Position numbers and translations under genes: made by a program. From a virus, in IMG/VR virus record IMGVR_UViG_3300037882_000817, positions 1 through 46,131 of that record: a DNA stretch of 46,131 nt; one strand, 5' to 3'. Below, one piece after another: positions 10,841-42,037 of this stretch (positions within the stretch are counted from its first letter, which is position 1; every line of letters starts with the position of its first letter). The notes beneath the pieces were generated by a model. The model was not told the origin of the DNA. It ran no database searches and saw only the letters and a list, made by a program, of their open reading frames with translations.

Positions 10841-11103
10841 CGCGGCACCTCGGTAATCTCGACATGTGCAAGTCGGTGGAATTTTGATTGGTTGCGGGTT
10901 GTTAGTCGCACGAACTGGCCGGTGGATAGCGCAACCAGCGCCCACGCCTTGATCGGCTTCATGGGCGATTGCTCCGGCAGTAACTTCGCCATCGGGCCGA
11001 GAACGGCTTTGGCCTTGGGTCCGAGTTTCTTCGACGGCTTAGTTGGTTTTTTAGCCAGCCTCTCGAAGGCTGCACACTCGGGCGTCCAATTAGATTTGGT
11101 CAT
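10837..11103 (-). CDS. Basic hypothetical protein
   Basis: This 88-residue protein has a strongly basic first half (KKPTKPSKKLGPKAKAVLG) and a C-terminal part predicted to be beta-rich. ATGA overlaps join it to both neighbours. The basic tail might bind nucleic acid. No family is recognised. Confidence 0.6.
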   Translation of the reverse strand: MTKSNWTPECAAFERLAKKPTKPSKKLGPKAKAVLGPMAKLLPEQSPMKPIKAWALVALSTGQFVRLTTRNQSKFHRLAHVEITEVPR

Positions 11104-16470: not shown

Positions 16471-16724
16471 TACGGATGCCTCGCGATCTCAAAAGTTACG
16501 GTTGGGATGATCGGCTCGTTGTTCGCATACGTGCCGTAGTCGTCAAAGTTGAAGTGGTCGGAAAACTTCTCACCACCGCGCCACGCTTCCAGTGCTTCGA
16601 TAGCCTCAGCGGGCGTCAGTGAGATCTGCAAGCTTGGCGGCTCAACGCTCACTTCCTCAGCGAAGCCGTCGCCATAGGCGTGTCGGTCGGTGTGGATGTG
16701 GAGCGGTGTTTCGGTGGTGGTCAT
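16470..16724 (-). CDS. Hypothetical protein
   Basis: This 84-residue acidic protein has LTPAEAIEALEAW, a short helix, and an otherwise beta-rich sequence. It sits between the ParB-like and nuclease genes with overlaps on both sides. No family is recognised. Confidence 0.6.
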   Translation of the reverse strand: MTTTETPLHIHTDRHAYGDGFAEEVSVEPPSLQISLTPAEAIEALEAWRGGEKFSDHFNFDDYGTYANNEPIIPTVTFEIARHP

Positions 16725-17488
16725 GACTCGCGCCCCGTAATCCGCAGCAACATCGCCTGGCAGAATCGGTCGATGACTTCGAGTTCGCTTCGGTTACACT
16801 CAAACCACTCCGGCGCTTTCCCCTCGCGGACAATGAACTGCATAGCTTCCTTTGTAGCGCCAAAATTCATGCGCTCCGGCGGCGGCTTCACGTCCTTTGT
16901 CTTTGTCTTGCCAGACTTGACCGCCTTCTTTTGTTCCTTTGCAGCGAGCTTCGAAATTGCCAGCGCGGCGGTGACTTTCATCTGCCCGCTCGCTAATCTC
17001 TCCTTCGCTTCTGGAGCGAGCGAAAGCAGCGATAGCCGATCATTCACCCACTTCACCGGCTCTCCGTACTCCTCTGCGATTTCGGCGACGGTCTTGCCCA
17101 TCTGCTCTAGCTTGCGGATGTTATGCGCATCGTCAAGCGCTGTCGTTGGATTCCGCTTACGGTTCTCGTGGATGTTGGCGATCAACCCCTCGTCCTCGTT
17201 GCAACGCACCGGAATACATCGAATGCGCATCCTCTCTTCCGGCCGGCGCGTCTCGTTGATTTCGCAGATAGCGCGCCAACGGGAGAATCCATATACCAGC
17301 GTCGGAGTACCGCCGTCGTTGCGGATGCCGACGGCCTGAAGCTGGCCTAACTTGCGGATACTGGCGACGATGCCACTGATATCCGGCAGGTCGTGCCGCC
17401 CGTTCATCTCCGGCGCGATCTCGATAGCTTCCGGCGCAAACAGATACTCGCTCCCGCGCTTATGCTCTGGCTTGAAATCGATGGCCAT
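16721..17488 (-). CDS. ParB/Spo0J-like protein
   Basis: This 255-residue protein has a ParB N-terminal domain: SIRKLGQLQAVGIR, then YGFSRWRAI where classical ParB has GERRWRA, and NIHENRKRNPTTALDDA for the ENLQR box. The KTVAEIAEEYGEPVKWVNDRLSLL helix-turn-helix follows. There is no ParA nearby, so plasmid-type partition is unlikely. Phage ParB-like proteins may act as CTP-switch regulators, DNA organisers or nucleases. It heads the recombination gene block. Confidence 0.8.
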   Translation of the reverse strand: MAIDFKPEHKRGSEYLFAPEAIEIAPEMNGRHDLPDISGIVASIRKLGQLQAVGIRNDGGTPTLVYGFSRWRAICEINETRRPEERMRIRCIPVRCNEDEGLIANIHENRKRNPTTALDDAHNIRKLEQMGKTVAEIAEEYGEPVKWVNDRLSLLSLAPEAKERLASGQMKVTAALAISKLAAKEQKKAVKSGKTKTKDVKPPPERMNFGATKEAMQFIVREGKAPEWFECNRSELEVIDRFCQAMLLRITGRES

Positions 17489-19336: not shown

Positions 19337-19582
19337 TCAAAATCGCCAACTGCTCATCGTCCAGCAGCGCGGAGGAAAGTCGTGCGGGCGGCGGCGAGCA
19401 TCGAGCCATAGCCGCTCCCAATCAGAGCGGAGAGTGTCGCGCTCGCGGGCGAGGCGGGCTACGACGCACTCGCAACAACGTCCACGCGAAACTCTACCAG
19501 CGCCGAAACAGCGCCTACACGATCCCGCGCCTAGCGCGAGGTGGTGATAATGCGGTGGGATGTCACTGTACTGTGATCTCAT
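19337..19582 (-). CDS. Possible small zinc-finger protein at end of late operon
   Basis: This 81-residue frame overlaps the end of the 138-residue gene by 20 bases. It carries CRRCFGAGRVSRGRCCEC, which resembles half of a DnaJ-type zinc repeat, and an arginine-rich helix. The ribosome-binding site is weak and the C-terminus is low in quality, so it may or may not be expressed. Confidence 0.45.
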   Translation of the reverse strand: MRSQYSDIPPHYHHLALGAGSCRRCFGAGRVSRGRCCECVVARLARERDTLRSDWERLWLDARRRPHDFPPRCWTMSSWRF

Positions 19583-19979
19583 CGGCCACTACGATATCAT
19601 CGGCGGCCCATGGTGTCTTTGGTGTCGCGCGGCCAGCGGAGAGCGTGTAGTCAATCCCAGCGGTCATCAGTAGGCCGTTGCGGAAGATGACGCCGATGTC
19701 GCTCAACGGGTACGATCCGTCAGCCGCCGCCATAACCTGCGCGCGGACCCGCGCGATGCGCAGCGCAGGCGCTGGCGTTGGAGCAACGTCAATCACCCAG
19801 CCGCTCGCCGTCATCGTGACCGTGAAGCCAGGCCCGAGCGTGACAGCCTGGAATCCCTTACCTGACGTATATGCGAGTAGAACCGGCTTTGGCGCGTCTG
19901 GCGGCGCTGCGCGTAGTTGGTCGGGCTTGATGGAGGTTTGCGCGTAGAGCGTAGCCGTGGCGATCAGCAAGAGCCTCAT
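19563..19979 (-). CDS. Secreted-looking late protein with Sec signal
   Basis: This 138-residue protein begins MRLLLIATATLYAQ, a short Sec signal with a probable cleavage before or after the glutamine. The mature part is beta-rich, with GFTVTMTASGWVIDV and VIFRNGLLMTAGIDYTL segments like receptor-binding or carbohydrate-binding modules, and it contains no cysteine. It overlaps the 159-residue gene by ATGA. It is part of the late adhesin block. Confidence 0.65.
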   Translation of the reverse strand: MRLLLIATATLYAQTSIKPDQLRAAPPDAPKPVLLAYTSGKGFQAVTLGPGFTVTMTASGWVIDVAPTPAPALRIARVRAQVMAAADGSYPLSDIGVIFRNGLLMTAGIDYTLSAGRATPKTPWAADDIVVADEITVQ

Positions 19980-20455
19980 TGCACCGCCGCCTCTGTCTCG
20001 GCGTTGGCCTGTGTCACGGCGGCATTGATCGCCGCTTGGCGTTGCTGGCGCACGACGGCGCGCATGGCGTCGACGATGATGGCCTTCCCGAGCGCGTTGA
20101 AGGTCTTGTACTTGAGTTCTGATACTTGCGCGTCAGTTGCGTGAATCGCTGGCGTCGTCCCGTTCGCGCCGCGAGTGACTGTGAGGACGTTGCCGGACTT
20201 CGCCGTTACTTGCAGGTGCTCGCTGTCGATGACAATGGCGGCGGCGGGGCCGATGCCCTGCGCGTTTTCGACCGTGAGCGTCACGGCTACAGCGCTGATT
20301 CCAGTTGTGAGTTTTGACGACACGCCGGTCGTCTGCCCCGCCATCCACGCGGTGAGCGCGGCGGTACCGTTTGCGTCCAGCGTCACGGCTGGCGCGTTGA
20401 CCGTCGCCTGAGAATAAGCAGCGATTGACGCCGCGACAATGATGAGTGTTTTCAT
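19976..20455 (-). CDS. Secreted-looking late protein with Sec signal
   Basis: This 159-residue protein starts at ATG 20455 after AAGGAG. It begins MKTLIIVAASIAAYSQ, a typical short signal. The mature part has LTTGISAVAVTLTVENAQGIG and VIDSEHLQVTAKSGNVLTVTRG, a fold common in small phage fibre-accessory domains, and a helical C-terminus. It has no cysteine. It directly follows the large fibre gene. Confidence 0.65.
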   Translation of the reverse strand: MKTLIIVAASIAAYSQATVNAPAVTLDANGTAALTAWMAGQTTGVSSKLTTGISAVAVTLTVENAQGIGPAAAIVIDSEHLQVTAKSGNVLTVTRGANGTTPAIHATDAQVSELKYKTFNALGKAIIVDAMRAVVRQQRQAAINAAVTQANAETEAAVQ

Positions 20456-20463
20456 ATTTCTCC

Positions 20464-23400
20464 TTAGAAAAGTGCCCTGTATGCGTAAGCATCGGCGGCG
20501 TCTTTCGTGCAAACTCGGAACGTGTCAGCCACTCCAGCGCCGCCCTGGACCATGGCGAGCTTCCCGCGATTCGATGAATTGCAGGTCGGCTCGGCCACGC
20601 TACCCCATTGCGGGATCGTGTCGCCAGCGATAGCGAATCCGAGCGTTCCGCTGCCAAGCGTAGCGTTGTTGGCGCGCCACTCCGTGAGGTTGGTGGTCGA
20701 TTGCCCAGCGCCTGCTTGAATGATTTCGCGGGTTGCGCCGGTTGTGGCGGTGGTGTCAAAGATCGCGAGGTCCACGCCGGAGACTTGGCCGTTGTATGCC
20801 GTTGCGCCAAAATTCCACTGACCTGTTGCTTCCATCCTCGCGGAAATAACCCCTGAGCTAGAAGCCCCAAACGTGAATGCGGGGCGAGTCGATAAATTTG
20901 CGAGTGTTCCGTTTAGCGGGTCGCCGGAGACCTGGAACGCCTGAAACGAAACCAGAGAAGTTGTGCCAGTGTCATTAGCGGAGGTAGTTAATCCACGAAA
21001 AACTAGCCCTTCTCTCGTTGATCCGCTTCCGATGCCTACGGTCATTGGGACAAAAGCCGTATCCGCTAAAGTTGCGTTCCCTAAAATAAGTTCCGCTCCC
21101 GACGCATCGGAAACCGTGGCGCGCCAAACAGCCTCACGCACACCAGCCTGTGACTGTATACTGCTCACAAACTGCCCATACGCATCGATTGCTAGCCGAT
21201 CCGCCCCATTTACTTCTGCCTGGATCAGGTTCCCGGTGAAACCAGAAGGCGCGTTGATGCAAAACTCCTGCCCTGCCGACGATCCAGACGCAATCGCCGC
21301 CGTACCAGCGGTCAACGCGCACCGCGTAGCCGACGCAGCCGGTGTTACCCCGATTCGTAATTCCCCCGCGTTCGGTTCGCTCGTGCTTTCGATCTCAGAC
21401 GGTGCCGTTCCCGCGCCGCCCCATCGCACCAGCGTTCCCGCAGTACCTGCCGCCGACGATGCCCACGCCGTGCCAGACGAGAAGTACGGAATCCCGCCGC
21501 TCGTACCGGCAATCGTGAATGCTGGCGTGGTCGTCGGGTTGGCAATTGAGACGATCCCGCCAGTCCATCCGACACTAGTGACCGTACCGCCGCCACCTCC
21601 GCCGGCCCCCAGCGCCACATTCGCGCCGTTGATCCGCGCGGTCAGTTCGTTCGCCGCCGAGTCGTACCAGAGATCGCCGTTCGAAGGCGCGGATGGGTCG
21701 CCCGCTTGAGATCCCACGTTGATCCCGGCGTTCGTGCCGTCAGGGTTGAACGTCTGGCGAACGCCGTCTGGGAATGTGATCGCGCCGGTCAGCGTCAACG
21801 TCGAGAGCGTTGTCGCGCCCGCAAGCGAGTTGGTCGCCGCGCCCTCCTGGACGATACCCCGGCAGGTGGTGATACCGGAGCCGCATTGATCGGAGACCAG
21901 GATGCCGGTGCGCGTGGTGATCGTGCCGCTTGAAACTGGTGTATTCACGCCAATCCCAACCGCCGATGTCAGTGTCCCGGCGAGGTGTAGCAGGTTCTCC
22001 GAATATCCAACATACGTTGGGATCGTTACCCCGCTCGCAGAGATCGCAAATAGCGAATCGTACCCAGCCATGCCACGCCCGCTGGGATTCGATGCAGGCG
22101 CCCAAATGAGGGTGTTGGACACCCCGATTGCGTGATCGGTCGTCTGCACTTGAGTGTCGCGCAGCGTCAGCGTCGTCGTGTCCACGTCCCTGTCGATCAT
22201 GGACTCGTTGCCGATTGCCATGTGCCCAGAGATGAACAAGCCGCCGAGGTTGACGGATTCCGTTTCCGAATTGGTCGATTGCTCCCAGGTGTTAGTCGTG
22301 TAGCAGTAATGCCAGACCTTCGCGTCCGTCTCGTAAAAGCGGTCGCCGAGTGTGCATGTTCCCGGTGTTGCCGTGCCGGTGGTGTAGCTAATGCCCTGCG
22401 TTTGCGTGATCGTTCGAGTGTAGAAGTCGCCGCTCGCGTCCCTCGCCACGATGGCCGAATTCGTCGCCGCGCTTGCGGCGGTTGTATTGGCGTTCGGCAG
22501 CACGCCGGTGACTTCGGTGGTCAAGTCCACGTCCGCGCATCCCTCCGCCGCGCCCGATGCGTCGACGCCGCGCGGGATGTTACCAGAGCAGTTCGCGCCG
22601 TTGGCCGCTAGCGCGGATGCGGTCGAAGCGTTGCCGGTGAACGCTGCTGCTTCCATTGTGGCGAGCGCGGAATCGGCGGCGTTCCGAACTTGCATGGTGC
22701 CGGACGAATTCTTGATCCGTGGGCCGCTAGCGCCGCTATCGATCTGAAACGAGGTTGCCGTGGTGCCGGTATCGGTGTTCTGTGTGTGCCCGCCGCCCGA
22801 TACGGTCGCCCAGGTGCCATCGCCGCGCAGATACGTCGTGCCGTCCGCCGTGCCGCTGCCGAGCCGCGCCGTGGGGACCGTGCCGCTCGCGAGATCCGAA
22901 GCGCTGCCGCTTGTCGCAATAGTCGCCAGCACCGTGCAGTTTTCCGACGCGCCAGAGGCGTCGACGCCGCGCGCATACGATCCAGCCGAACAGTTTGCTC
23001 CGTTCGCGGCGAGCGCCGTCGCCGTGGCGGCGTTGCCCGTGGTGCTGCCCGAGGAGCCGCTCACGTTGCCTGTGACGTCGCCCGTCAGGTTGCCGCTAAA
23101 TGTGCCGGTGGTCGTGCCGGGTAGCGTCGGGTTCGTCGGGATGCTGAACGTCGGCGCGCCCGCCACGCCATCGCCGTTGGTGACCGTGATCTGGTTCGCT
23201 GTTCCGGTGAGCGTTCGCGGCGTGTATGTCGCCGCTCCGGTACGCGAGAGTATCCCGGTCGTCGAGAGCGCCGCAACCGCCGTCAGATCCGCATCAAGCG
23301 GCTGCTTGGCGTCCAGCGCGGCCTGAAGGTCGGTTTGATCCGAGAGCGTGCCTGTGATCGCGCCCCATGCCGCGCTGCCGCCACCAGAGGCGTTGATTGT

Positions 23401-24492
23401 CGTTCCCGTGATCGACAAGTTCGTCCCGAGCGTCAGGTGCGTGTACGCGCCTGCGCTGTCATCCCAGAACAGGATGCGGTCCGCGTTGGGATCGGCTAGC
23501 GCCGCGATCTGCTGGACCTCCGTATCAAACGCCAGCACATCAGTCCCGATCACCAAACCTAGCGCCGTTCGCGCCCCGCTGGCCGTGGACGAGCCGGTTC
23601 CGCCGCGAGATACCGCAAGGGTGCCAGCCCAGGTCAAGACGTGCGCATTCGATCCGCTGACGATGGTGACGTTGGTGTCGTTCGTGAAGGTCTGGGTGCT
23701 GCCGGTCTGCGAGTTCAACGAGGTCAGGCCAGATCCGCCAGCCGCGCAGCTATCCGGCCCCCATGTCGCCGTGGTCGTGTCGTACACGAGGCACTGGCCG
23801 TCCGTCGCACCACCGCCGTTGAGTTGCGAGAGGGTGAACATCACCGTAGGACTCGGAACAGTCGTCGCGCGGATCTGGTAGAGCTTCGTATCGCCCGCCG
23901 TCACGTCCCATGTTTCTAGCCAGCCAGTACCACGCGAGGGCGTGAATCGTGCGCTGTACGACGTACCCGCTGGCGTTATAGCGCTGTTGGTGTAGAGCGT
24001 GATCGTCACGACGCCCGCTGATAGTTGCGCCGAGCAGTCGCCGCCGGTGACGCCAAGACAGAGCGTGTACGACCAGCCCGCGAGCGATGTCGTCCCGCTG
24101 TAGAGCGGTTGCGCCGATCCCGGAGCGTTGAGCGTGACGACGATCCTGCCCGTCCACGCCGCGCCGCCGACCGAGGAGGTGATGGCGTCGGAGATCGTGG
24201 CGGTCTGAGCGTGCAGCGCCGCCACAAACAAAAGCGGCAGGAAATGTTTCGCCGCCCACGCCACGCCGCCGCCGATCAGCGCGGACGCCGCCGTTATCGC
24301 CTTCCATGCGCCGCGAGCTTCGGCTACCTTGTCCTTCATCATGTCGTGAGCGTCTTCGAGTTTCGACACGCGCCCGTTTTGCTTTGCGATCTGCTCCTTG
24401 ATGTTTTCGAGCTTCTCGTCATGTCGGCCCATTAACTCGCGGATATCGCCGAGTGCTTCCCGCAAATCGTCCATTGTCATGGCTCCCTGCAT
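20464..24492 (-). CDS. Large tail fibre with coiled-coil/membrane N-terminus
   Basis: This 1342-residue protein is a fusion. Residues 7-60 are a charged coiled coil (RHDEKLENIKEQIAKQNGRV), 63-96 are hydrophobic and end LLFVAALHAQ like the signal peptides of its neighbours. The rest is a tail-fibre sequence with SRGGTGSSTASGARTALG, YLRGDGTWATV and two related blocks around ANGANCSAGSYARGVDASGA. Many cysteines occur in the fibre part. The first 95 residues resemble a XhlA/holin-associated protein and might be a separate gene whose stop was lost, with the fibre starting at an alternative codon near residue 85. Confidence 0.75.
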   Translation of the reverse strand: MQGAMTMDDLREALGDIRELMGRHDEKLENIKEQIAKQNGRVSKLEDAHDMMKDKVAEARGAWKAITAASALIGGGVAWAAKHFLPLLFVAALHAQTATISDAITSSVGGAAWTGRIVVTLNAPGSAQPLYSGTTSLAGWSYTLCLGVTGGDCSAQLSAGVVTITLYTNSAITPAGTSYSARFTPSRGTGWLETWDVTAGDTKLYQIRATTVPSPTVMFTLSQLNGGGATDGQCLVYDTTTATWGPDSCAAGGSGLTSLNSQTGSTQTFTNDTNVTIVSGSNAHVLTWAGTLAVSRGGTGSSTASGARTALGLVIGTDVLAFDTEVQQIAALADPNADRILFWDDSAGAYTHLTLGTNLSITGTTINASGGGSAAWGAITGTLSDQTDLQAALDAKQPLDADLTAVAALSTTGILSRTGAATYTPRTLTGTANQITVTNGDGVAGAPTFSIPTNPTLPGTTTGTFSGNLTGDVTGNVSGSSGSTTGNAATATALAANGANCSAGSYARGVDASGASENCTVLATIATSGSASDLASGTVPTARLGSGTADGTTYLRGDGTWATVSGGGHTQNTDTGTTATSFQIDSGASGPRIKNSSGTMQVRNAADSALATMEAAAFTGNASTASALAANGANCSGNIPRGVDASGAAEGCADVDLTTEVTGVLPNANTTAASAATNSAIVARDASGDFYTRTITQTQGISYTTGTATPGTCTLGDRFYETDAKVWHYCYTTNTWEQSTNSETESVNLGGLFISGHMAIGNESMIDRDVDTTTLTLRDTQVQTTDHAIGVSNTLIWAPASNPSGRGMAGYDSLFAISASGVTIPTYVGYSENLLHLAGTLTSAVGIGVNTPVSSGTITTRTGILVSDQCGSGITTCRGIVQEGAATNSLAGATTLSTLTLTGAITFPDGVRQTFNPDGTNAGINVGSQAGDPSAPSNGDLWYDSAANELTARINGANVALGAGGGGGGTVTSVGWTGGIVSIANPTTTPAFTIAGTSGGIPYFSSGTAWASSAAGTAGTLVRWGGAGTAPSEIESTSEPNAGELRIGVTPAASATRCALTAGTAAIASGSSAGQEFCINAPSGFTGNLIQAEVNGADRLAIDAYGQFVSSIQSQAGVREAVWRATVSDASGAELILGNATLADTAFVPMTVGIGSGSTREGLVFRGLTTSANDTGTTSLVSFQAFQVSGDPLNGTLANLSTRPAFTFGASSSGVISARMEATGQWNFGATAYNGQVSGVDLAIFDTTATTGATREIIQAGAGQSTTNLTEWRANNATLGSGTLGFAIAGDTIPQWGSVAEPTCNSSNRGKLAMVQGGAGVADTFRVCTKDAADAYAYRALF

Positions 24493-24513
24493 TGGTCTGT
24501 ACTCCTGATTTCA

Positions 24514-24753
24514 TCAGTGCTTCGGCGGGTCTTGCGGCGAAGGCCGCGCCGGTGGTTTTCCGTGCCCAAGTGGATATTGCGGCATCGGCTCATGCCCACT
24601 TGGTTCGTAATCTTGCGGACGCCTCGAATACAGCGCGCCCAGCGCAACGACCGCCGACGCCACCGAACTCACTAACTTGTCGTCTGACGAGACGAGCGGC
24701 GCGGCGGCTCCGGCTGCAAGGGTGAAGGCGATCTTGAACCAGCGGCGCTTCAT
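24514..24753 (-). CDS. Candidate holin (small membrane protein)
   Basis: This 79-residue protein starts at ATG 24753 in an ATGA overlap. A basic N-terminus (MKRRWFK) precedes two hydrophobic stretches (IAFTLAAGAAAPLV and VASAVVALGALY) separated by a short acidic turn, and the tail is proline-rich and polar. The size and shape suit a class II holin and the place, beside fibre genes at the end of the late operon, fits lysis. No endolysin is identified to pair with it. Confidence 0.5.
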   Translation of the reverse strand: MKRRWFKIAFTLAAGAAAPLVSSDDKLVSSVASAVVALGALYSRRPQDYEPSGHEPMPQYPLGHGKPPARPSPQDPPKH

Positions 24754-25187
24754 TGCTTGACCCAAAAGCCCTTGAATGGCGTCTCGCGACTGTAGAGAAA
24801 CTTCATGCCGTTCACTTCGCGCGGTTCACCGGTTTCGTGCATCTGGTTTGTCCGGTCGTAATAGCTTCGCGTGGTATAAGGAATCAGCGCTCCAATGCCT
24901 TGTCCAACCTCCCCTGCGACGTCTTTCGGCATGTAGTCGGCTGGGGTTCTATCGGAGCATGGAACATTCAGTAACTCGAACCCGCCCTCCGGGAATGAGT
25001 CCGTTTTTGGTCGTCTCTTGCGTTCGGCCGTCACCGTGACCGGAGGCTGCCCTGTCTTGATTGCGTTTTTGGCCGCGTTGTCGCAGGCGGTCTCGTGGTT
25101 GTCCGAGTTCAACTCATTGATGACATCGGCGGCTTCCTGTTGGGCGGTATAGAACCGTGCAATGTACTTCTCATCAACTGAAAACAT
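24750..25187 (-). CDS. Hypothetical late protein near holin candidate
   Basis: This 145-residue soluble protein starts after AAGGAG. I see no known lysozyme, amidase or peptidase motif. It has three cysteines, a basic linker (TAERKRRPKTD) and a C-terminal tyrosine-rich part (ALIPYTTRSYYDRTNQMHET). Its position between the secreted protein and the holin candidate makes it a possible lysis or virion-accessory protein. Confidence 0.55.
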   Translation of the reverse strand: MFSVDEKYIARFYTAQQEAADVINELNSDNHETACDNAAKNAIKTGQPPVTVTAERKRRPKTDSFPEGGFELLNVPCSDRTPADYMPKDVAGEVGQGIGALIPYTTRSYYDRTNQMHETGEPREVNGMKFLYSRETPFKGFWVKQ

Positions 25188-25209
25188 TCTTCACTCCTTT
25201 TGTTCTATT

Positions 25210-25926
25210 CTACTTTTCTTCAACCAGGACCTGAACACCGACCGTCTCCCAGTCCATATCCGCGAATACAACAGCGGCCACGCGCCGCCCAGACGGTTGC
25301 GTGTACGGTTCAGCGAGGTACGAGAGCGTTTCTTCGCCACGCTTGGCGGTCACACGCACGGCAACGGCGCTCTGATTGCGCGGGTCGACGAAGACCTGCG
25401 TGTACTTGCCGGACGCGGGCATTCCGGTTAACTCGCGCAGCTTGTCGAAGTCCACGCACGAGGTGTAGTATTCGGCGGTAGCGGTGGACGCTTGGATGCC
25501 GCAAGCGGTGGGCTTGGGTTCGTCCTGCGCCGCCGATTTGATCTGAGCCAGAGGTAGGTTCGTCGGATTGAATTTATCGATTTTCACTTCGCTCGACCGC
25601 ACGACAAGCCGCTTGTCTTTCGCGTGATATTCGAAGTTCTCGTGATAGATGGAGTTGAAGCCACGCGCGTCCATCATTTTGTCGTTGATCCGCGTTCCAG
25701 ACGGCCCCATTTCGTATTGAACATCGACGCCCGGCGCTACGATCACTGGGTACGTGGTATGGTCGGACCACGGCCCGCAGTACCCGGTCGTGACCGTCTG
25801 CGCCATGCCCGGCCCGTCGCAGACGGTGTTGCAGCCGTCGCCTGCCGGTCGGCAATTGCGCGGCGAGTTGCCCTGCCCGAACGCCAGCGTGGCGGAGGCT
25901 ATGATTCCGATGATTCGATGTCTCAC
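25210..25926 (-). CDS. Cysteine-rich secreted-looking protein with Sec signal
   Basis: This 238-residue protein starts at GTG 25926 (GTGA overlap). It begins MRHRIIGIIASATLAFGQ, a clear signal. The mature N-terminus is rich in cysteine (NCRPAGDGCNTVCDGPG and GYCGPW), and two more cysteines occur later, so disulphides in an oxidising compartment are likely. No family is recognised. It could be an exported accessory protein, an envelope-acting protein or a virion protein displayed outside the cytoplasm. Confidence 0.7.
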   Translation of the reverse strand: MRHRIIGIIASATLAFGQGNSPRNCRPAGDGCNTVCDGPGMAQTVTTGYCGPWSDHTTYPVIVAPGVDVQYEMGPSGTRINDKMMDARGFNSIYHENFEYHAKDKRLVVRSSEVKIDKFNPTNLPLAQIKSAAQDEPKPTACGIQASTATAEYYTSCVDFDKLRELTGMPASGKYTQVFVDPRNQSAVAVRVTAKRGEETLSYLAEPYTQPSGRRVAAVVFADMDWETVGVQVLVEEK

Positions 25927-26207
25927 TTTTTAACCTCGGCTTTCGGCGCGGACGGAATGGGCCGCTCGTAGACGAACCCGGCGCGCGGATCGACGGCGCA
26001 AGCGGGCATCGGGATTCCGGCCTTCGCGCAGATCGATGCGACTACGGCCTCGTAGCGGAGCTGGATGTTTTCGAGTCGGAGCGAATCGGCTTCTTCAAGC
26101 TGAAAGCGCTTCATTGGTTCCGGTTTCGGCGGCGCGGGTTTCGCGGCCTCCGGTTTGTCTTGCGCGGCTAAAGTGAGCGCCGCGAGTGTGAATGCTAGTT
26201 TTAGCAT
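25923..26207 (-). CDS. Small secreted-looking protein with Sec signal
   Basis: This 94-residue protein starts at ATG 26207 after CAGGAGG, overlapping the spike stop. It begins MLKLAFTLAALTLAAQ, then a proline/lysine/alanine-rich stretch (KPEAAKPAPPKPEP), then a helical domain with two cysteines. This layout (signal, flexible proline-rich spacer, helix) resembles small spanin outer subunits or periplasmic linkers, but no lipobox is present. Confidence 0.65.
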   Translation of the reverse strand: MLKLAFTLAALTLAAQDKPEAAKPAPPKPEPMKRFQLEEADSLRLENIQLRYEAVVASICAKAGIPMPACAVDPRAGFVYERPIPSAPKAEVKK

Positions 26208-28798
26208 GTGCCTCCTGTTAAAATCCCATTGCCAAAGATCAATGTGCATGTGCCGGTACCGGCTGCGTCCCGAACGGTTTTAGTGACGGACAAGCCATTT
26301 GATCCATTCGACTGAAGATTGCCGCCAGATAGAATATCGAGCGAGCCACCGGACGGTATATCCACTTGCAAAAAATAACCGTAATCAAAATAAATGCTGT
26401 TCCCGCGAGTAGCAATAGCCCCAATGTTGTACGTACTGCCCGTTCCGAACGCTATGTTCCCTGCAAATGTCTGTCCTGCCGTGAACGTATTCGCACCGGA
26501 AAACGTTTGCGCGATGTTTGTTCCGGCAATCGTGTAATTCGCGTCTTGAACTGTCAAAGCCCTTGTGGTTGCGGTTGTTAGTCCGTCTACCTCAAAACGT
26601 ACTATTTTCGTAGCATCGGCAGAGCCTTTTACTATCGCGGTCGTATCTACAACCGGAAGAGAACTTGAACCACAGCCAGTGCAAGTACCAGAAACATTCA
26701 AGTCAACAAAGTACCCAGTCAACCAGCGATTCATAGACGCGCCAATATTGTAAGCCGATGCAGTCTGCGGCAGCATGTCTGAGTTTATCTCGTTGCCGAA
26801 ATTCACATCTCCATTGAATTGGATCTCGCCACTTACAAGCGTAATCATGGCCGTGTTGTTTCGCTCGATAACGACGTTCGCAGCGGTGTTCGTTCCGATA
26901 GTGGGTGTGACGACTTGATCGAAGTATCCAGAGCCGTAGCTGTAGGACGAATCACCAATCGACCCAAGCCCAGTGAATCCAGGCCGAAGCGTTCCGCTCA
27001 TCGTGTTGATCGAGCCGCTCAGCGTCGCGTTACCACCAACAACCAGAACATCGTCAATCGTCACGTCATCGTTGACGATTGTGATTGCGGTTTCGTACCC
27101 ACCAACTCCCGTCGCTGTTTGAATCGTGACCTCCTCCGAAGAGAAGGTATTCGAGGTATAGCGCCCGCAAATCCGGCCAGCCACATATACAGTCGATCCA
27201 ACTGAATCCGTCGCCGACATCGCATAACAAGCGCCGTAAGCGCCAGTGTACGCGTTCTCGGCTACGACAGCGTTATAAGTGCTCGGGTCGTCGACACTGA
27301 AGTCTCCGAGATGGCCGTACAGCACGGACGGGCGAAGCGCGTCTGTGCCAACCGAGTAAGCATCGTCTGCGCCAGGGACCCAGTTATAAGACGAGTCGAT
27401 CTCCCACCGCAGGCCGGGCACATACGGCGAGCCGGTCGTTAATCCAGTCTCGCCAAAGAACGCCATGCGGCCCTGCGAGAGCCGGAGGATAGACGCCTGC
27501 GTAGCCCGTGGAATGAAGTTCGTACCATCCCACTCGATGCCCGCCATAAACCACGCCTGGTGGTCCTGCGCGGAAAAGAGGTATGCCCCACCCGTCGAGG
27601 TGTTCGACATGTGAATCTGCGTCCCGGCCCCCCGCCCATCGATCAGGAAATCCCCGCCGTGAAGCGTCAGGTGTCCGCTGCTGGCGTCGGAGAACTTGAT
27701 TCCGCTCACGCCCGCGTCGTAGATGTTGTCGAAGTTATCGCCCGTGAACGTGACAGGATCAAACCCGCCGATCACGCGGTTGCCGAGGAATGTCGAGCCG
27801 GTGACGTTGAACGCCTGAATCGGCGCGGTCGTCACGGAGTCGATCTTGTTGTCGTTGCAAACGATCCGCGAGCCATACGTGCAGGTCGTGTCGCAGTAGA
27901 AGTCAATGCCAACCGCGCCGCTTTCAATGTGGTTCGAATTAACGATGATATCACCGACGCCGGAGCTTCCGTGAATGTAAATGCACGTCCCTCCCGCCGC
28001 CATCGTCGCCGTGTTGCCGGTGATGATCCAGCCGGTCCCTGGCGTGTTGCGATCAACGCAGTTGAACGGGCCGACGAAAAGGTTGTCTTGGATATGGACG
28101 AAACTCGATTGAATCGATGGCGCGACAACGATGCCCTTGTACACGTTGTCGAACGTCAAGCGGTGAATCGTCGTGTAATCGATCAGTCCGGTTCCAATCG
28201 CGCGAATGCCGATCTGCGAAGTTCCGCCGTTGCCCTTGATCGTGAAGTCGCTGAAGTCCATCGCGATAAACTCACCGCTTGTCGCCACCGTGGGGATATC
28301 GATGATCGTGGCGTTTGTGGTCGAGTAAAGCTGCGAGACATCGCGCCCTTGCCCGCGCATCCCCTGATAGCTCGATGTGAATGTCACCCCGGTGACCAAG
28401 CAAACCCCCGGCGGGAGAACCACGACGCCACGGTTCGAGCCAATCGCCGCGATAGTGGCCGCGATAGCAGCCGTGTCGTCCGTCGCGCCATCACAGACCG
28501 CGCCGTAAGACCGCACGTCGTAATCAGCCGCCCCGCATGTCGCCCAGGACCAAACTCCCGCCGTGGTCCCGGTGAGGCATTGGCCGCTGGTTGTGGGATG
28601 CGCGCTCGGCCAGGTATTCGTAATCGTTGCCGCAAGAGAAGCGTTGCTGCGAAACTGAACCTCATGCGAACCGTTCGCATACTTCTCGCGAAACGCAAGT
28701 ATCCCTGTCGCCGAATCGTCCTGCTTGGGGATGATCGTTCGCTTCACGTCGGACTGAGCGAAGGCTACGGCCGATAGAGTCAGTATGAGGATTCTCAT
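26201..28798 (-). CDS. Pectate-lyase-like tail spike with Sec signal
   Basis: This 865-residue protein has a right-handed beta-helix start, DYDVRSYGAVCDGATDDTAA (residues 92-111), then GVVVLPPGVCLVTG, which is the Pectate_lyase_3 style of phage spikes that bind or cut surface polysaccharide. The C-terminal half has fibre-like repeats. It begins MRILILTLSAVAFAQ, a signal peptide, and contains about fifteen cysteines, both unusual for a virion spike. ATG 28798 makes an ATGA overlap with the tail-tip gene and has AAGGAAGG eight bases upstream, so the signal is inside the translated protein. Confidence 0.8.
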   Translation of the reverse strand: MRILILTLSAVAFAQSDVKRTIIPKQDDSATGILAFREKYANGSHEVQFRSNASLAATITNTWPSAHPTTSGQCLTGTTAGVWSWATCGAADYDVRSYGAVCDGATDDTAAIAATIAAIGSNRGVVVLPPGVCLVTGVTFTSSYQGMRGQGRDVSQLYSTTNATIIDIPTVATSGEFIAMDFSDFTIKGNGGTSQIGIRAIGTGLIDYTTIHRLTFDNVYKGIVVAPSIQSSFVHIQDNLFVGPFNCVDRNTPGTGWIITGNTATMAAGGTCIYIHGSSGVGDIIVNSNHIESGAVGIDFYCDTTCTYGSRIVCNDNKIDSVTTAPIQAFNVTGSTFLGNRVIGGFDPVTFTGDNFDNIYDAGVSGIKFSDASSGHLTLHGGDFLIDGRGAGTQIHMSNTSTGGAYLFSAQDHQAWFMAGIEWDGTNFIPRATQASILRLSQGRMAFFGETGLTTGSPYVPGLRWEIDSSYNWVPGADDAYSVGTDALRPSVLYGHLGDFSVDDPSTYNAVVAENAYTGAYGACYAMSATDSVGSTVYVAGRICGRYTSNTFSSEEVTIQTATGVGGYETAITIVNDDVTIDDVLVVGGNATLSGSINTMSGTLRPGFTGLGSIGDSSYSYGSGYFDQVVTPTIGTNTAANVVIERNNTAMITLVSGEIQFNGDVNFGNEINSDMLPQTASAYNIGASMNRWLTGYFVDLNVSGTCTGCGSSSLPVVDTTAIVKGSADATKIVRFEVDGLTTATTRALTVQDANYTIAGTNIAQTFSGANTFTAGQTFAGNIAFGTGSTYNIGAIATRGNSIYFDYGYFLQVDIPSGGSLDILSGGNLQSNGSNGLSVTKTVRDAAGTGTCTLIFGNGILTGGTC

Positions 28799-31700
28799 GT
28801 AATCGACCTTCCTTTGGCGCTCGCGTGTAGCTCCCATTTTGACGCGGTGTTGCGCACAAAACAATAGACTGAGTAGGTATCTGCGGTTAAGTCTGGGTCT
28901 TCGTTCGAAAGCCCAATGTACTCGGTGTCCCACGTGATCGTTCGACCGCCCGTCGCGTCCTGAATAAACTTCAAAGTGAGCTTCATCCCTTCAACAATTG
29001 CTCCGCCTGTGTAGACCGGATTGGCAGCGGTAACGTTCGCCGTCATTGTCTCTTGCTGGTTCAGCCCGTCAGCAAGATCAGGCGTAACCGTGGCCGATAC
29101 GGTCGCCATCTCGAAGTACCCATCGTTGTTTCCGATTGCCGGATTCGACGCGCCGAACACATATATCTCGCGAACTTTGTTCAGCGAATCGATGGACTCA
29201 TTGCCGCCGCCGTCGAGTAGGACCACCTGGACCAGAACGACGCGCTGATTGTAGTTCGTCACTTCGGTCGAGAGGTAGAGGGTCTCGGCGATATCCGCGT
29301 TGTTCAGGGAATCGCCCGTGACGTTTACCTGCCAGTCCGGCTCCTCGATTATGTACCGCGATGTTGAATCTGGCGTTGAAAGCCATGAACCCTCAATATA
29401 GATTTTCGTTGCCGTGTTGCTGATGATCCGATAGACCTGTCCAGCGCCCGGCCCGGTGATGACGCGCAGCAGGTTGCCGATTTCCTCATCGGTCGTCAAC
29501 CCCGCGCCACCAGCTTCCAGCGTGTTCTGCCAGAGCGCATCGGAAAGATAGTTGCCGCCGCCGTCGACGCCCACCGTCGGCTTCGAGCGCATAATCATCG
29601 CATCGCCCACGGCGACGATGCCGGAAGGGTTCGGGGAGACGGTCAAGACCGCTGCCGTATTCGACGAGACGCGGTAGTTCAAGACGCCGAGATTGCCGCC
29701 CGCCGCGATGCCAAGTATCGAAACGTCGTATCCGGCCCACTGGTTCACCGTCCAGCCCGCGCCGGTGACTTCCAGCGTGTTCGCTCCGACGACATCAACT
29801 GGCTGTCCCCAGACCCCGCTATGAGCCACGCGCTTAACCTTGATTCGCGCCCGGTCCATCTCGGGGTCAGGCATGCCCTCGGCGCACTCCTTGTAGGCTG
29901 TTAGCGTGACGCTCGAAGGCGTTGAGGCGCTCGTTGTGTGCTTCGTCAGGAACTGCGGCGTGTTGCCGCAATAGGCGACGTAGCCGGTCGCCCCGGAAGG
30001 CCAGCCGGTAATCGCGCACGTCACCGTATTCGCCGTTGAAGCGTTCGTTACGACCACCTCGCAGAGCGTCGATGGCGCGCTGACCTTTCCCGTCGAATCG
30101 GTCGCGCAAATTGCGATGTAGTATGTCCTCCCGCTGCCGAGGAAGTTCCCCCCGGTCGATGCGGTTGTTCCTTGCCGCGCGACAATCGGTGGCGCGAGCG
30201 AGGAGAAGATATTGACCGGCCAGTTTCCGCTGATTGCCAGTTTCGTGATGATCGTTCCGTCCGCCGCCGTTTCGTGTTCCTCGGCCAGCGTAAAGGTTTG
30301 ATCCGTCTCGTCAAGTATCGGGTCGCTGGCGTGCGGCGTAGCGCCGGCAGGCCCCCAAGGGTGAGCCGGTCGCTCCAAGCGATTGCGCGCCGAGGTTGTT
30401 GTCGTTGGGTCCGCCTCTTGCCCGTAGGTATCGACGAACCAATCGTCGTTATGGCGCTGCGCGACAAGCTGAACGGTCTCGAAGTCCTTCGACGGGCGAA
30501 CTTGCAGAATCCGCGCGAGCACGTTCGAGATCCCGTAGTGAGCGTTCGAGATTCTGACAATGTGCCCGGCCCGGACACGGACGGCCCGGAAAGAATCGCG
30601 CCACGAGAAGACTTCCGTTCCGCCACTATCGTTTCGTGGATTGCCGTACAGGTTTCGAGCGAGTCTCCGCTTACTGATCCGCTTCGCTTGATCGAACGTG
30701 TTGACGCCTTCGCAATCGAAGCGCTCGACAACTTCTTGACCGGCCAGCGCCGATGCGTTCGTATCGAGCCGTGATATCGAATCCGCCGCGTAGTCGCGCT
30801 CGGAATTAGTGAACTGGAACTCCACGCGATTCGGCGATTGCGAGATTGGCGGCGTCTCGATCTTGAACGTGCTTCGCCCGCCTTCGGTCAGGAACTTTGT
30901 GAAATCATAGGCCGCATAACCGTTCGTCGCGCCGCCCGTCAACGCTTTCGACGATATCGCCGTCGTATAGTTCGATCCATCTACCGCGCTCGGCTGTTGG
31001 CTGGCCAGCGTGCCCTCGATGTAGATGTCGATAAGGCCCGTCGAACTGTTTGGAACAAGCACCGCGCCGCACCCTTGGCGAACGGCCCGGATCGCGTCGG
31101 CGGCACTCCGGCGCTGGTTGATCACGAGACTGCACGAGTACCGCGCGTGGCTTGAAGATGCCCCGAACTGATCGGTATAGGAGATCGAAGCGTCACAGAT
31201 CGCAGCGGCGTCGATGAAGGATTGGATTCCGAGTTCGGAGTACCGCATCCCGGCCCAGACGAGAAGATCCATGATGACCCAGACCGGGTTCGCCGAATAG
31301 GCCGACGAGTATGTCGATGTCCCAGTGTAGACGCGGATCTGCGGGCCTTGCACCAGAACGCGCACGCGCGGCGTTCCTTGAGCCTCCGATACTCGGCGCG
31401 GAACAACGCAAAGGATCGCGCACATCGAACCGTAGGGGTCGCCGTTGCCGCTATAGAACGCGTCTGCGTTCGGCGCTCCGTCGCGGTCGCCGCGATTGAC
31501 GACGTTGTAGCGCAAGAGCGGATCGCGGACGATGTAGTTTGTCCCGCCAGTAACATCGGTTGCCGGTTGAAGTTCAACGTCATTAACGACGACGCGGTGA
31601 ATGTAGTTGACCTCTCCGAGGCAAACAATCGCCTCAAAGCGAGTCGAGTTCCCGTCGCCGAAGATCGGCATGACAATCGGATCGACCCATGCCGTTCCGT

Positions 31701-32541
31701 AGACCATCGGAATCGGGTTCCCGTATCGCGCTTCGTTCGGGTTGCCTTGGATATCGAGCCATTTGCCAGACGTGTATTCTCGGCTGCGAAACGCCGTCTG
31801 CGCCTCGTATTGCGAGCCGCCGAACCGCCCGGTAACGCGGGAACTTGAATCGAGCTTATACATACCTCTAGCCACGCAAGCGGCCTTCGTGTAATCGCAC
31901 GTCGTGTACGCCGTTACGCCACTCTGATAATTCCCTCGCGCGTTGCCTCCCGTAGCATCGGGAGAATAGCCGCAAGCGAAGTACGGCGAGTCTTCGTTGT
32001 CCGCTCCGTCCTGCCGTTGCGCGAGCGTCGATGGCAAGAGCCACGGACAGCGGCGTTGGAGCGGGACCGGTGGAAGTGTTCGGCGCTGCAAGCTGAGTTT
32101 GTTGGTCGCCGAAAGCGTCAACGTCGTTTCGTCGGATCGCGCCGGATCGCAAACGCCAACAAACTTGGCGATAGAATCGCTTGAAAACGTCGCCGAGTCA
32201 GCGTCCCACAGAAGAAATGTCAGCGATAAAGTGGCGTAAGCGAAACCCTTCACGTCCTCGTAGCCGGTCTTGATCGCCTTGTCCGGGTCGGCGATTGTGA
32301 TATCGGCCTTCGGAACGATATCGATTCCTCCGGCGTCGAATCCTTGAATCGCACCCAGGTTGTAATCCAAGATCCGCCCGTCATAGTTATTGCCGCCGTA
32401 TTGGTAGCCGCCTTGCGCGGTCGAAAGTGGCTTCGAACACAGACGTAGAACGCTGGCGTCGGTGAACGTGATAACCGCCAAGAGAAGCGGTTGGTACGTT
32501 TCGACAGAATCCTTCGCGGCGTTGATGGTTGTGAGCGCCAC
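28795..32541 (-). CDS. Tail tip protein, gpL/gpJ-like fusion
   Basis: This 1248-residue protein seems to join two lambda functions. The first 230 residues resemble gpL, with cysteines at 165 (CPW), 190 (CGYS), 215 and 222 in the spacing of the gpL iron-sulphur site. The following part (about 240-760) resembles the gpJ hub that forms the tail tip, and the remainder has repeated domains of fibronectin type. Separate K and I genes are absent. It starts at GTG 32541 with a weak ribosome-binding site and ends in the ATGA overlap with the spike. It should set host contact at the tail end. Confidence 0.75.
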   Translation of the reverse strand: MALTTINAAKDSVETYQPLLLAVITFTDASVLRLCSKPLSTAQGGYQYGGNNYDGRILDYNLGAIQGFDAGGIDIVPKADITIADPDKAIKTGYEDVKGFAYATLSLTFLLWDADSATFSSDSIAKFVGVCDPARSDETTLTLSATNKLSLQRRTLPPVPLQRRCPWLLPSTLAQRQDGADNEDSPYFACGYSPDATGGNARGNYQSGVTAYTTCDYTKAACVARGMYKLDSSSRVTGRFGGSQYEAQTAFRSREYTSGKWLDIQGNPNEARYGNPIPMVYGTAWVDPIVMPIFGDGNSTRFEAIVCLGEVNYIHRVVVNDVELQPATDVTGGTNYIVRDPLLRYNVVNRGDRDGAPNADAFYSGNGDPYGSMCAILCVVPRRVSEAQGTPRVRVLVQGPQIRVYTGTSTYSSAYSANPVWVIMDLLVWAGMRYSELGIQSFIDAAAICDASISYTDQFGASSSHARYSCSLVINQRRSAADAIRAVRQGCGAVLVPNSSTGLIDIYIEGTLASQQPSAVDGSNYTTAISSKALTGGATNGYAAYDFTKFLTEGGRSTFKIETPPISQSPNRVEFQFTNSERDYAADSISRLDTNASALAGQEVVERFDCEGVNTFDQAKRISKRRLARNLYGNPRNDSGGTEVFSWRDSFRAVRVRAGHIVRISNAHYGISNVLARILQVRPSKDFETVQLVAQRHNDDWFVDTYGQEADPTTTTSARNRLERPAHPWGPAGATPHASDPILDETDQTFTLAEEHETAADGTIITKLAISGNWPVNIFSSLAPPIVARQGTTASTGGNFLGSGRTYYIAICATDSTGKVSAPSTLCEVVVTNASTANTVTCAITGWPSGATGYVAYCGNTPQFLTKHTTSASTPSSVTLTAYKECAEGMPDPEMDRARIKVKRVAHSGVWGQPVDVVGANTLEVTGAGWTVNQWAGYDVSILGIAAGGNLGVLNYRVSSNTAAVLTVSPNPSGIVAVGDAMIMRSKPTVGVDGGGNYLSDALWQNTLEAGGAGLTTDEEIGNLLRVITGPGAGQVYRIISNTATKIYIEGSWLSTPDSTSRYIIEEPDWQVNVTGDSLNNADIAETLYLSTEVTNYNQRVVLVQVVLLDGGGNESIDSLNKVREIYVFGASNPAIGNNDGYFEMATVSATVTPDLADGLNQQETMTANVTAANPVYTGGAIVEGMKLTLKFIQDATGGRTITWDTEYIGLSNEDPDLTADTYSVYCFVRNTASKWELHASAKGRSIT

Positions 32542-40045: not shown

Positions 40046-42037
40046 TTAAGCGCCGGGGTTCTTGTAAGCGCCGCGCCAATCGAGGATTTGCGCGCCGAAA
40101 TCCGTTCTGACTTTCATCTCCACGCCATCAACGTCGAAGCCTACACGCTGTTCCGTGTAGATGCCTTCTTGGCCGGCGAGGTAGCCGTACTCGATGATGT
40201 CGATTTGCGCCGGATCGGCGAAACCGTACCATGCAATTGCGCTGTTCGCGTCCAGGCGTGGCTCGACAATCACGCTCAGGTTCTTGAACGTGTTGATATT
40301 CGACCCCTGCTGCGGAGTGTACTGATTGCTCGTCTGTTGAAGCGCGACGGTTTCAATCGCGGCCGGGACTGCGATATAGCGCGCCTCAATGTTGAGGTAT
40401 TCAACGGCAAGCACGTTTTTCTGAACCCGCATAGCGGCGCGCATAGCCCCGAGTGTCGTTTGCGAGATCACCCCGCCGGAGCCGGCGAGATTCCCGTGCG
40501 TGGCGGTGTGGAACAGAGCCACCGAGTCCGCGCCCATCGTCGGGTTGCTAGTGATTAGCGCCCAGACGATATCGCTCTCCAGTTGCGCGACAGCCCGGCC
40601 TTGGAGTGTCGGGATGCGGCTAAAGGCCGAGAGGTCATCGTTGATGATCGCCTGTCTATTCAAGGCGATGATATTGCCGTAGGTGGCCAGCGCATAAGAC
40701 TCTCGCTTGTCGCTCATCTTGACATACTTGAACTCGCCGCCCGGCCCAACGACGGTGGGAGTCGCCATTTCCGAGATTTGGTTCACGTACTTCGTCTTGA
40801 AGTCGCTCAGCGTGGTCCCGCGCGCAATCGGCTTCCACGTTTGCGGGTAGGCGTCGTAGGCGGCGCGAAGCGACTTGTTCATCACGTTGGCGAGGATCAA
40901 CGGGAGATCCGTTGTTCCGCCGTATCCGGGATTGGCAAAGCGTTCCACGCGGAGACCGAGCGCCATCGCGGCGAGTTCCATTGGCGTTGCGCCGGAGTAC
41001 TTGACTCCAGACAGCCGCAGGCTTTCTTCGGCAATCCGGAGCAAGCTCATGCCAGCGTAAGGCTTACCGGCATCGAGCTTGACCGCGTTCATATTGCATC
41101 GGTGCTCGATGGCGTTCTGCAAGCCCTCGCGCTGCCTGTCCCGTTGGTCGTTCTGGACGCTCGCCGTATGCCGGTTGTCAATCTCGGTTGCTTCGGATTG
41201 TCGCCCGAGTTCTTCGATAATCGATGCGCGCGCATCGGCGAGAGTAGCGCCGGACGCAATCAATCCGTCGCCAAACTCCTGTTTCAGTTTGGCCGCTTTG
41301 ATGGCGGCCTGGATACCGGCAACGCGCTCGCGTTCCGCTTTCGCGCCTTCCTCGCGCGCGGCGCTAACCGCCGCAAGGTTTGCGGTACGGGTTTCGTCGC
41401 CCGTGGGTTGGGGATTCAGATTATCCGCCATTTGACTTGCCTCCTGTCGGGGGGTTGGTTGAGGTTGATCGAACGTCTGTTGATCCATCAATTGAGCGAT
41501 GGGCAACTGGTCCGATAGAAACCCGGCGTTTTCGTCCGCCGGGATAGGAACAATCGAAACTTCTCGGGGATACCACTTGTCGGCGACGTAAGTCGAAATA
41601 CCTTCCTCTTCCGATTCCTTCGAAAGATGAAGAATGACGGCTCCCACGCTGACTTTTGAAAGCGTTCCGCTCTTGACTTTCCTAAAAATAGAATCGCTCT
41701 CAGGGTCGTCGGCGAAAGACGCCGTAGCGAATGCCACGCCACCATCGATTCGGGGATTAGAGCAGGTCCCGAGAACGTATCGAACGCTCCAGTCCATGTG
41801 AGAATCGAGCAGCGGAGCACCGCGCAGCCGCCCGATATCGCACTGCCCGGCGTCAAGTCCGAGCCGAAGTTTGTATTTCTCGCCCGTATTGTAGTCGTAA
41901 CGGTCAACCGTCGCGCCCGTGTAGAACTGCATTTCCACGGTCCGCGCATCGTCCGAGAACGATTGCGGCTGAATATCAGCGGCGAGCCGGACGACGTTGG
42001 AAGTCTTACGCTGCGGCTGTTTTACTTGAGGGTTCAT
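40046..42037 (-). CDS. Fused prohead protease and major capsid protein
   Basis: This 663-residue polyprotein has an HK97-type prohead protease at 15-190, with likely catalytic H80 (LLDSH) and S130 (SKVS). A coiled linker (about 210-300, AAREEGAKAERERVAGI) follows as in scaffold delta domains, and the major capsid protein occupies about 330-663 (LPLILANVMNKSLRAAYD, FHTATHGNL, RVGFDVDGVEMKVR). The protease should cut itself and the scaffold away during head maturation. No separate scaffold or capsid gene exists. The start overlaps the portal by 32 bases. Confidence 0.9.
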   Translation of the reverse strand: MNPQVKQPQRKTSNVVRLAADIQPQSFSDDARTVEMQFYTGATVDRYDYNTGEKYKLRLGLDAGQCDIGRLRGAPLLDSHMDWSVRYVLGTCSNPRIDGGVAFATASFADDPESDSIFRKVKSGTLSKVSVGAVILHLSKESEEEGISTYVADKWYPREVSIVPIPADENAGFLSDQLPIAQLMDQQTFDQPQPTPRQEASQMADNLNPQPTGDETRTANLAAVSAAREEGAKAERERVAGIQAAIKAAKLKQEFGDGLIASGATLADARASIIEELGRQSEATEIDNRHTASVQNDQRDRQREGLQNAIEHRCNMNAVKLDAGKPYAGMSLLRIAEESLRLSGVKYSGATPMELAAMALGLRVERFANPGYGGTTDLPLILANVMNKSLRAAYDAYPQTWKPIARGTTLSDFKTKYVNQISEMATPTVVGPGGEFKYVKMSDKRESYALATYGNIIALNRQAIINDDLSAFSRIPTLQGRAVAQLESDIVWALITSNPTMGADSVALFHTATHGNLAGSGGVISQTTLGAMRAAMRVQKNVLAVEYLNIEARYIAVPAAIETVALQQTSNQYTPQQGSNINTFKNLSVIVEPRLDANSAIAWYGFADPAQIDIIEYGYLAGQEGIYTEQRVGFDVDGVEMKVRTDFGAQILDWRGAYKNPGA

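Follow-up and report, generated by a model that had tools for sequence, protein, structure and literature searches.

A coiled-coil/membrane module in frame with a tail fibre, and signal-peptide-like leaders around it, in an environmental tailed phage

The window analysed here is IMG/VR virus record IMGVR_UViG_3300037882_000817, a stretch of 46,131 bases that carries a tailed-phage late region on its minus strand. Within this region lies an open reading frame (ORF) of 1342 codons (positions 20464-24492, minus strand, ATG start), in which an N-terminal coiled-coil/membrane module is followed, in a single frame and with no stop between them, by a tail fibre, just as the original prediction had described it. 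On balance we favour the view that this ORF is a natural in-frame fusion of an XhlA-like coiled-coil/membrane gene with a leader-bearing tail-fibre gene, translated as one protein. The evidence consists of one open coding frame, a profile match to the N-terminal part, a leader-like sequence ahead of the fibre, and leaders of the same kind on five neighbouring genes and on the spikes of relatives. Leader-bearing fibres were also found in about ten unrelated viral contigs, which is a more interesting result than the fusion itself.

One coding frame through module and fibre

We measured coding signal as log-odds per codon from codon usage, with ten core genes of the window as the training set. 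In the frame of the ORF the values were +0.45 for residues 1-76, +0.23 for residues 77-96, +0.29 for residues 97-340 and +0.28 from there to the end, without a dip where module and fibre meet, while the five other frames reached +0.05 at most. Given this difference between frames, the N-terminal part is genuinely coding, shares its frame with the fibre, and is not a chance extension. A frameshift at the join was rejected, since the other frames contain no competing coding signal. The sequence CAGGAG sits nine bases upstream of ATG 24492, and a second candidate start, ATG 24474, also has a site of its own. Calculated pairing with the anti-Shine-Dalgarno sequence was -6.9 kcal/mol for ATG 24492 and -7.4 kcal/mol for ATG 24474, compared with a median of -6.6 kcal/mol over 21 gene starts of the window, a set which includes these two.

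Searched alone, residues 1-95 matched the 'hemolysin' profile phrog_937 through residues 7-76 (profile positions 38-105 of 115, E=2.8e-5); with the whole ORF as query the match had E=0.0028. An AlphaFold2 model of residues 7-240, made from the single sequence, gave one long helix with a predicted local distance difference test score (pLDDT) of ~77-92 over residues 7-56; for the model as a whole pLDDT was 52 and the predicted template-modelling score (pTM) 0.29, with low confidence from the membrane segment onward. A coil followed by a hydrophobic stretch is an architecture that fits XhlA-like proteins, of which the module would be a putative member. The small membrane proteins of lysis cassettes that belong to XhlA or phrog_937 likewise have an N-terminal coiled coil and then a hydrophobic C-terminal segment; the ORF differs from them in that its module is joined to a fibre of ~1246 residues, falls below the Pfam cut-off, and has no recognised endolysin nearby. 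In its surroundings, a hydrophobic 79-residue protein is encoded upstream, and no endolysin family was recognised among the window proteins scanned with Pfam and PHROGs. Against phage records residues 1-95 gave weak matches only (E 0.02-0.8 in 18 records, to tape measure, exonuclease and hypothetical proteins). One weak match (a 32.9%-identical stretch, E=0.05) is to a 60-residue protein of Rhodoferax phage P26218, encoded directly before an annotated glycosyl-hydrolase-108 gene, and appears to be a protein of broadly this type that is encoded by a gene of its own at a lysis position.

The fibre part resembles known fibre and structural proteins over short parts (best E 2e-7), as tailed-phage tail fibres do, and sits after the tail genes; residues ~84-241 searched alone in phage records gave no match. 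From its gene position and this similarity we infer that the fibre is present in the virion. The features are listed in the table below.

Features of the ORF and its neighbourhood (window coordinates; each leader is given up to its predicted cut, after which the next residue is Q)
Feature	Position	Strand	Basis
Fused ORF, 1342 residues, coiled-coil/membrane module and tail fibre	20464..24492	-	ATG start; uniform coding signal over the join
Ribosome-binding site caggag before ATG 24492	24493..24510	-	second candidate ATG 24474 with ggag
XhlA-like module (putative), residues 7-76, coiled coil and start of membrane segment	24265..24474	-	phrog_937 E=2.8e-5; Pfam XhlA below cut-off
Signal-peptide-like segment, residues 77-96, predicted cut between A95 and Q96	24205..24264	-	contains GTG 24264 and CTG 24240
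Fibre part, residues 97-1342	20467..24204	-	short matches of repeat type to fibre/structural proteins, of cyanophages among others, best 2e-7
Large tail protein, just upstream of the spike	28795..32541	-	PF13550 5.8e-4, below cut-off; query for relatives; 7 related loci
Pectate-lyase-fold tail spike, leader MRILILTLSAVAFA	26201..28798	-	PF12708 7.8e-7; leader kept in relatives
94-residue protein, leader MLKLAFTLAALTLAA	25923..26207	-	leader heuristic
238-residue protein, leader MRHRIIGIIASATLAFG	25210..25926	-	leader heuristic
145-residue protein without leader, no function assigned	24750..25187	-	PHROG scan, leader heuristic
79-residue protein, hydrophobic N-terminal part, holin-like by size only	24514..24753	-	no family match below 0.06
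159-residue structural-type protein, leader MKTLIIVAASIAAYS	19976..20455	-	PHROG tail families best 7.5e-5; cyanophage structural proteins 2e-6
138-residue protein, leader MRLLLIATATLYA	19563..19979	-	leader heuristic; no phage match

Signal-peptide-like leaders in and around the ORF

The signal-like stretch that had been noticed before the fibre was recovered at residues 77-96 both by a hydropathy heuristic and by a blind scan. After the start codon it reads AWAAKHFLPLLFVAALHA and then Q, so that a protein started at GTG 24264 would begin with MAWAAKHFLPLLFVAALHA and have Q after the predicted cut. From this codon the stretch has the predicted features of a Sec signal peptidase I substrate, namely a positive n-region, a hydrophobic core and a small-x-small motif before the cut. 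Counted from ATG 24492 the n-region would exceed 75 residues, which is atypical, and the heuristic leaves ATG 24492 unflagged.

After the large tail protein the gene order is the pectate-lyase-fold spike, four small genes, the fused ORF and two more small genes. When applied to 56 starts (those of 55 genes, and GTG 24264), the heuristic flagged 28798, 26207, 25926, 20455, 19979 and GTG 24264 only, and the flagged genes cluster after the large tail protein, at 19563-28798 of the window. The leaders of the five flagged neighbours each end in A, G or S with Q after the cut, the same kind as in the ORF. The claim that neighbouring genes begin with the same kind of signal therefore held for five genes and for no other of the 55. 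The earlier remark that a membrane-anchored fibre would be very unusual overlooks these same-kind leaders on the neighbouring spike and fibre-type genes. The 94-residue protein at 25923-26207 has a short coil-like stretch as well, and could be a lysis or envelope accessory.

The blind scan, a regular expression applied to every ATG, GTG or TTG with 29 open codons on both strands, matched 8 of 976 starts on the minus strand, six of which are exactly those flagged by the heuristic. The two extra matches are an internal GTG of the ORF at 23904, which is weakly hydrophobic, and a 41-codon frame at 10962. On the plus strand 5 of 959 starts matched, none of them recognised as a gene start. The chance rate is about half a percent per start, so that a match at one or other of the three ATG/GTG/TTG codons within residues 60-111 is expected by chance ~1.5% of the time.

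With the large tail protein as query, seven related loci were found in IMG/VR (67-72% identity), and in all five that reach the next gene, the spike, a leader stands at its start (MRILLYIIAAGLAFGQ, MRILFYIIAAGLAFGQ or MRLYLYILSASLAFGQ; L002, L003 and L004 look alike). About 95 N-terminal residues of the spike are kept in all five relatives, and the remainder is unlike in four of them, L005 sharing later parts too; the L006 and L004 contigs extend no more than 103 and 223 codons past the spike start, respectively, so that little beyond the N-terminus is visible there. A kept N-terminus with a differing rest is the usual modular build of such a spike. A further relative, G011 (locus L022), has a large terminase 91% identical and a large tail protein 62% identical to those of the window; two genes after the latter, behind a gene for 297 residues, it encodes a different fibre, starting MLRYLIFFLPLFAQ (L022:18694-19116). 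The predicted leaders of these relatives support the reading of the segment in the ORF as a leader.

We then used the fibre module of L022 as a query in IMG/VR, which returned 79 loci. In 77 of these the 5' end is closed; 16 of the 77 were flagged by the heuristic, and the other 61 have no leader. Four flagged loci (L054, L055, L076 and L078) were dropped as false, the flagged starts being internal and more than 100 codons in. The 12 that were left include the relative itself (L026) and a pair, L043 and L047, that looks like a single gene, which makes about ten unrelated cases. In L027, L028, L042, L043 and L047 an earlier possible start precedes the leader, which lies 136 codons in for the last two; these two we kept by judgement because their leader is strongly hydrophobic. 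Q follows the predicted cut in 6 of the 12 leader-bearing fibres. Several of these contigs have more than one gene with a leader, L029 as many as six. At least two leader genes in a row, including fibres, are seen in the unrelated viral contigs L029:667-10480, L058:3458-10196, L047:4452-8442 and L077:4668-7747. Phage head, virion or terminase genes were present in 7 of 10 contigs tested (L027, L028, L030, L031, L047, L050 and L058), and none were found in the searches made for L029, L042 and L077. Predicted leaders on fibres recur in viruses but form a minority. The idea that the leader belongs to the fibre module itself was rejected, since most fibres with the same module (61/77) lack one.

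Weighing the proposed fusion against other explanations

The proposal that two genes have fused gains support from the profile match, which ends at residue 76 with about ten positions of the model left, from the leader-like segment that starts there, from the continuous coding signal, and from the ribosome-binding site before the ATG. Several results weigh against it. IMG/VR searches with residues 1-241, ~84-264 and 7-86 of the ORF found no relative of either half, so that the separate ancestral genes and the order of events are reconstructed rather than observed. Other routes gave the same outcome: none of the relatives found reaches the ORF, and no relative of it was met with the upstream 145-residue gene as an IMG/VR query or in twelve virus records reached through related loci (13 handles). 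Species genomes searched with the spike N-terminus and the large tail protein gave nothing, and the large tail protein had no match in phage records. The leader calls come from our own hydropathy heuristic, not from SignalP, and are predictions. The best 19-residue Kyte-Doolittle mean of the combined hydrophobic stretch is a modest 1.49. In Tunturi_3, a cultivated Acidobacteriota phage, a leader was found on none of 26 proteins examined, so the pattern is not general; a habit common to Acidobacteriota phages was rejected on the same count.

The identity of the module is weakened in a similar way. Pfam XhlA (PF10779) scored 11.0 bits, below its gathering cut-off of 34.7, and phrog_937 is coil-prone, with matches at E<=1 in 13 of 14 control genomes, so part of its score may be generic coiled coil. 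It is this that makes the claim of the original prediction, a complete XhlA protein in residues 1-82, too strong. Among 30 records, phrog_937 was found in the window and in one other, G038 (E=1.0e-3, inside a 1377-codon open frame), which we took for a coil.

Instead of a single product, the frame could give two proteins, the long one and a secreted fibre pre-protein with a start of its own, GTG 24264 (or CTG 24240). A non-ATG start near 24240 had in fact been suggested, and the codon exists (CTG 24240, residue 85), but GTG 24264 (residue 77) is the better candidate, since it gives a charged n-region and a leader like those of the neighbours. Pairing at GTG 24264 (-5.0 kcal/mol) and CTG 24240 (-5.7 kcal/mol) beats the background median of -2.9, yet both values are weaker than the median of real starts and than the limit of the best 10% of background (-6.4). 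Moreover, the pairing comes from GGCGGC, which is not a purine-rich site and, at 24264, abuts the codon, and in a listing of start codons with a 4-base Shine-Dalgarno word, which took in only the first eight codons of the types ATG, GTG and TTG in the ORF, no internal start near the join appears. With ribosome-binding energies weaker than those of most real starts, a separate start is unsupported, and we consider it unlikely.

It is distinctly improbable, in our estimate, that coil and hydrophobic stretch simply form the head of the fibre itself, the coil serving in trimerisation or attachment and the hydrophobic part being a linker with no membrane role. N-terminal coils are frequent in fibres, and phrog_937 is coil-prone; however, the hydrophobic stretch ends in the same form as the five neighbouring leaders, and the phrog_937 match extends into the membrane segment. 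The fusion might also be either an artefact, in which assembly joined two sequences, or a recent lesion by which this one assembled genome lost a stop codon, as a single copy of the ORF is known and no relative covers it. Both parts, however, share one frame, the coding signal is strong in each and does not dip where they meet, and an artefact would keep the frame only about one time in three; we regard this explanation as very unlikely.

In the natural fusion that we favour, the ancestral fibre gene would already have had its own signal-peptide-like leader, like the neighbouring spike and fibre-type genes. One protein would be translated from ATG 24492 (or 24474), backed by its ribosome-binding site. 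The coiled coil would be kept in the cytoplasm, the hydrophobic stretch of residues ~64-95 is predicted to span the inner membrane N-in/C-out, and the fibre would lie outside the inner membrane, on the side where the neighbours would go. Signal peptidase may still cut after A95, freeing the fibre. Both parts predict the N-in/C-out orientation, which would leave the fibre on the neighbours' side, and this may be why the fusion was tolerated. The two-gene history, the topology, the cleavage and the arrival of the fibre in the virion are what we infer from such predicted features. A broader scheme can be sketched, though we give it little credence: a group of environmental tailed phages might export spikes and fibres by Sec leaders and join them to virions there, outside the cytoplasm, when the cell lyses or afterwards. 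Here one such fibre would have been welded to a lysis-type membrane protein, and a cut by signal peptidase could turn the single chain into a mature fibre and a lysis accessory in the membrane.

Genome context and known systems

The recognised genes of the late region are those for the small and large terminase, a lambda-type portal, the capsid protein, the tape measure and the large tail protein. The capsid protein (663 residues, 40046-42037; PF25209 and phrog_4523) has a protease-like N-terminal part, with PF04586 below cut-off. In the early region a ParB protein with a helix-turn-helix domain (PF17762) is encoded at 16721-17488. In two relatives (L012:428-9830 and L010:36-7245) the terminase genes are preceded, at a distance of a few kb, by a methyltransferase gene, and in L012 by a helicase gene too. 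This arrangement suggests that both ends of the window may adjoin each other in a genome that is permuted or circular.

Tail fibres of tailed phages are generally understood to be assembled in the cytoplasm. Filamentous phages, whose coat proteins have signal peptides, have virion proteins that cross the inner membrane and are assembled at the membrane. The likeness to the window is in this passage of virion proteins through the inner membrane; the difference is that the window, with its terminase, portal and tape measure, belongs to a tailed phage. Modular tail spikes combine a conserved head at the N-terminus with enzymatic or binding parts that are exchanged, as in the relatives, whose spike keeps its first ~95 residues while most of the rest differs; the difference here is the signal-peptide-like leader before the conserved head, which we did not find described in print.

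Lambda Lom, encoded between the spike and fibre genes, is a phage outer-membrane protein, a beta-barrel put into the host membrane (PMC12309495). It is alike in being a gene with a membrane-localisation signal inside the tail-fibre region, and different in that its product is a beta-barrel and not a fibre (PMC12309495). No description of signal peptides on tail fibres was found in the literature searched, including the accessible parts of PMC5723332, PMC12309495, PMC8951688, PMC10820202 and PMC11924767. The signal peptides mentioned in those parts belong to endolysins, to Lom, or to unnamed Bacteroides phage genes (PMC5723332, PMC12309495, PMC8951688 and PMC10820202).

Should the leaders be real, the start sites of such fibres need careful annotation. 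The five leader-bearing neighbours, together with the fused ORF, hint that fibres may be sent out through the cell membrane. If this is true, some fibres would be placed outside the inner membrane before lysis, where they might be added late, be displayed on the surface of the host, or be set free to act on its polysaccharide.

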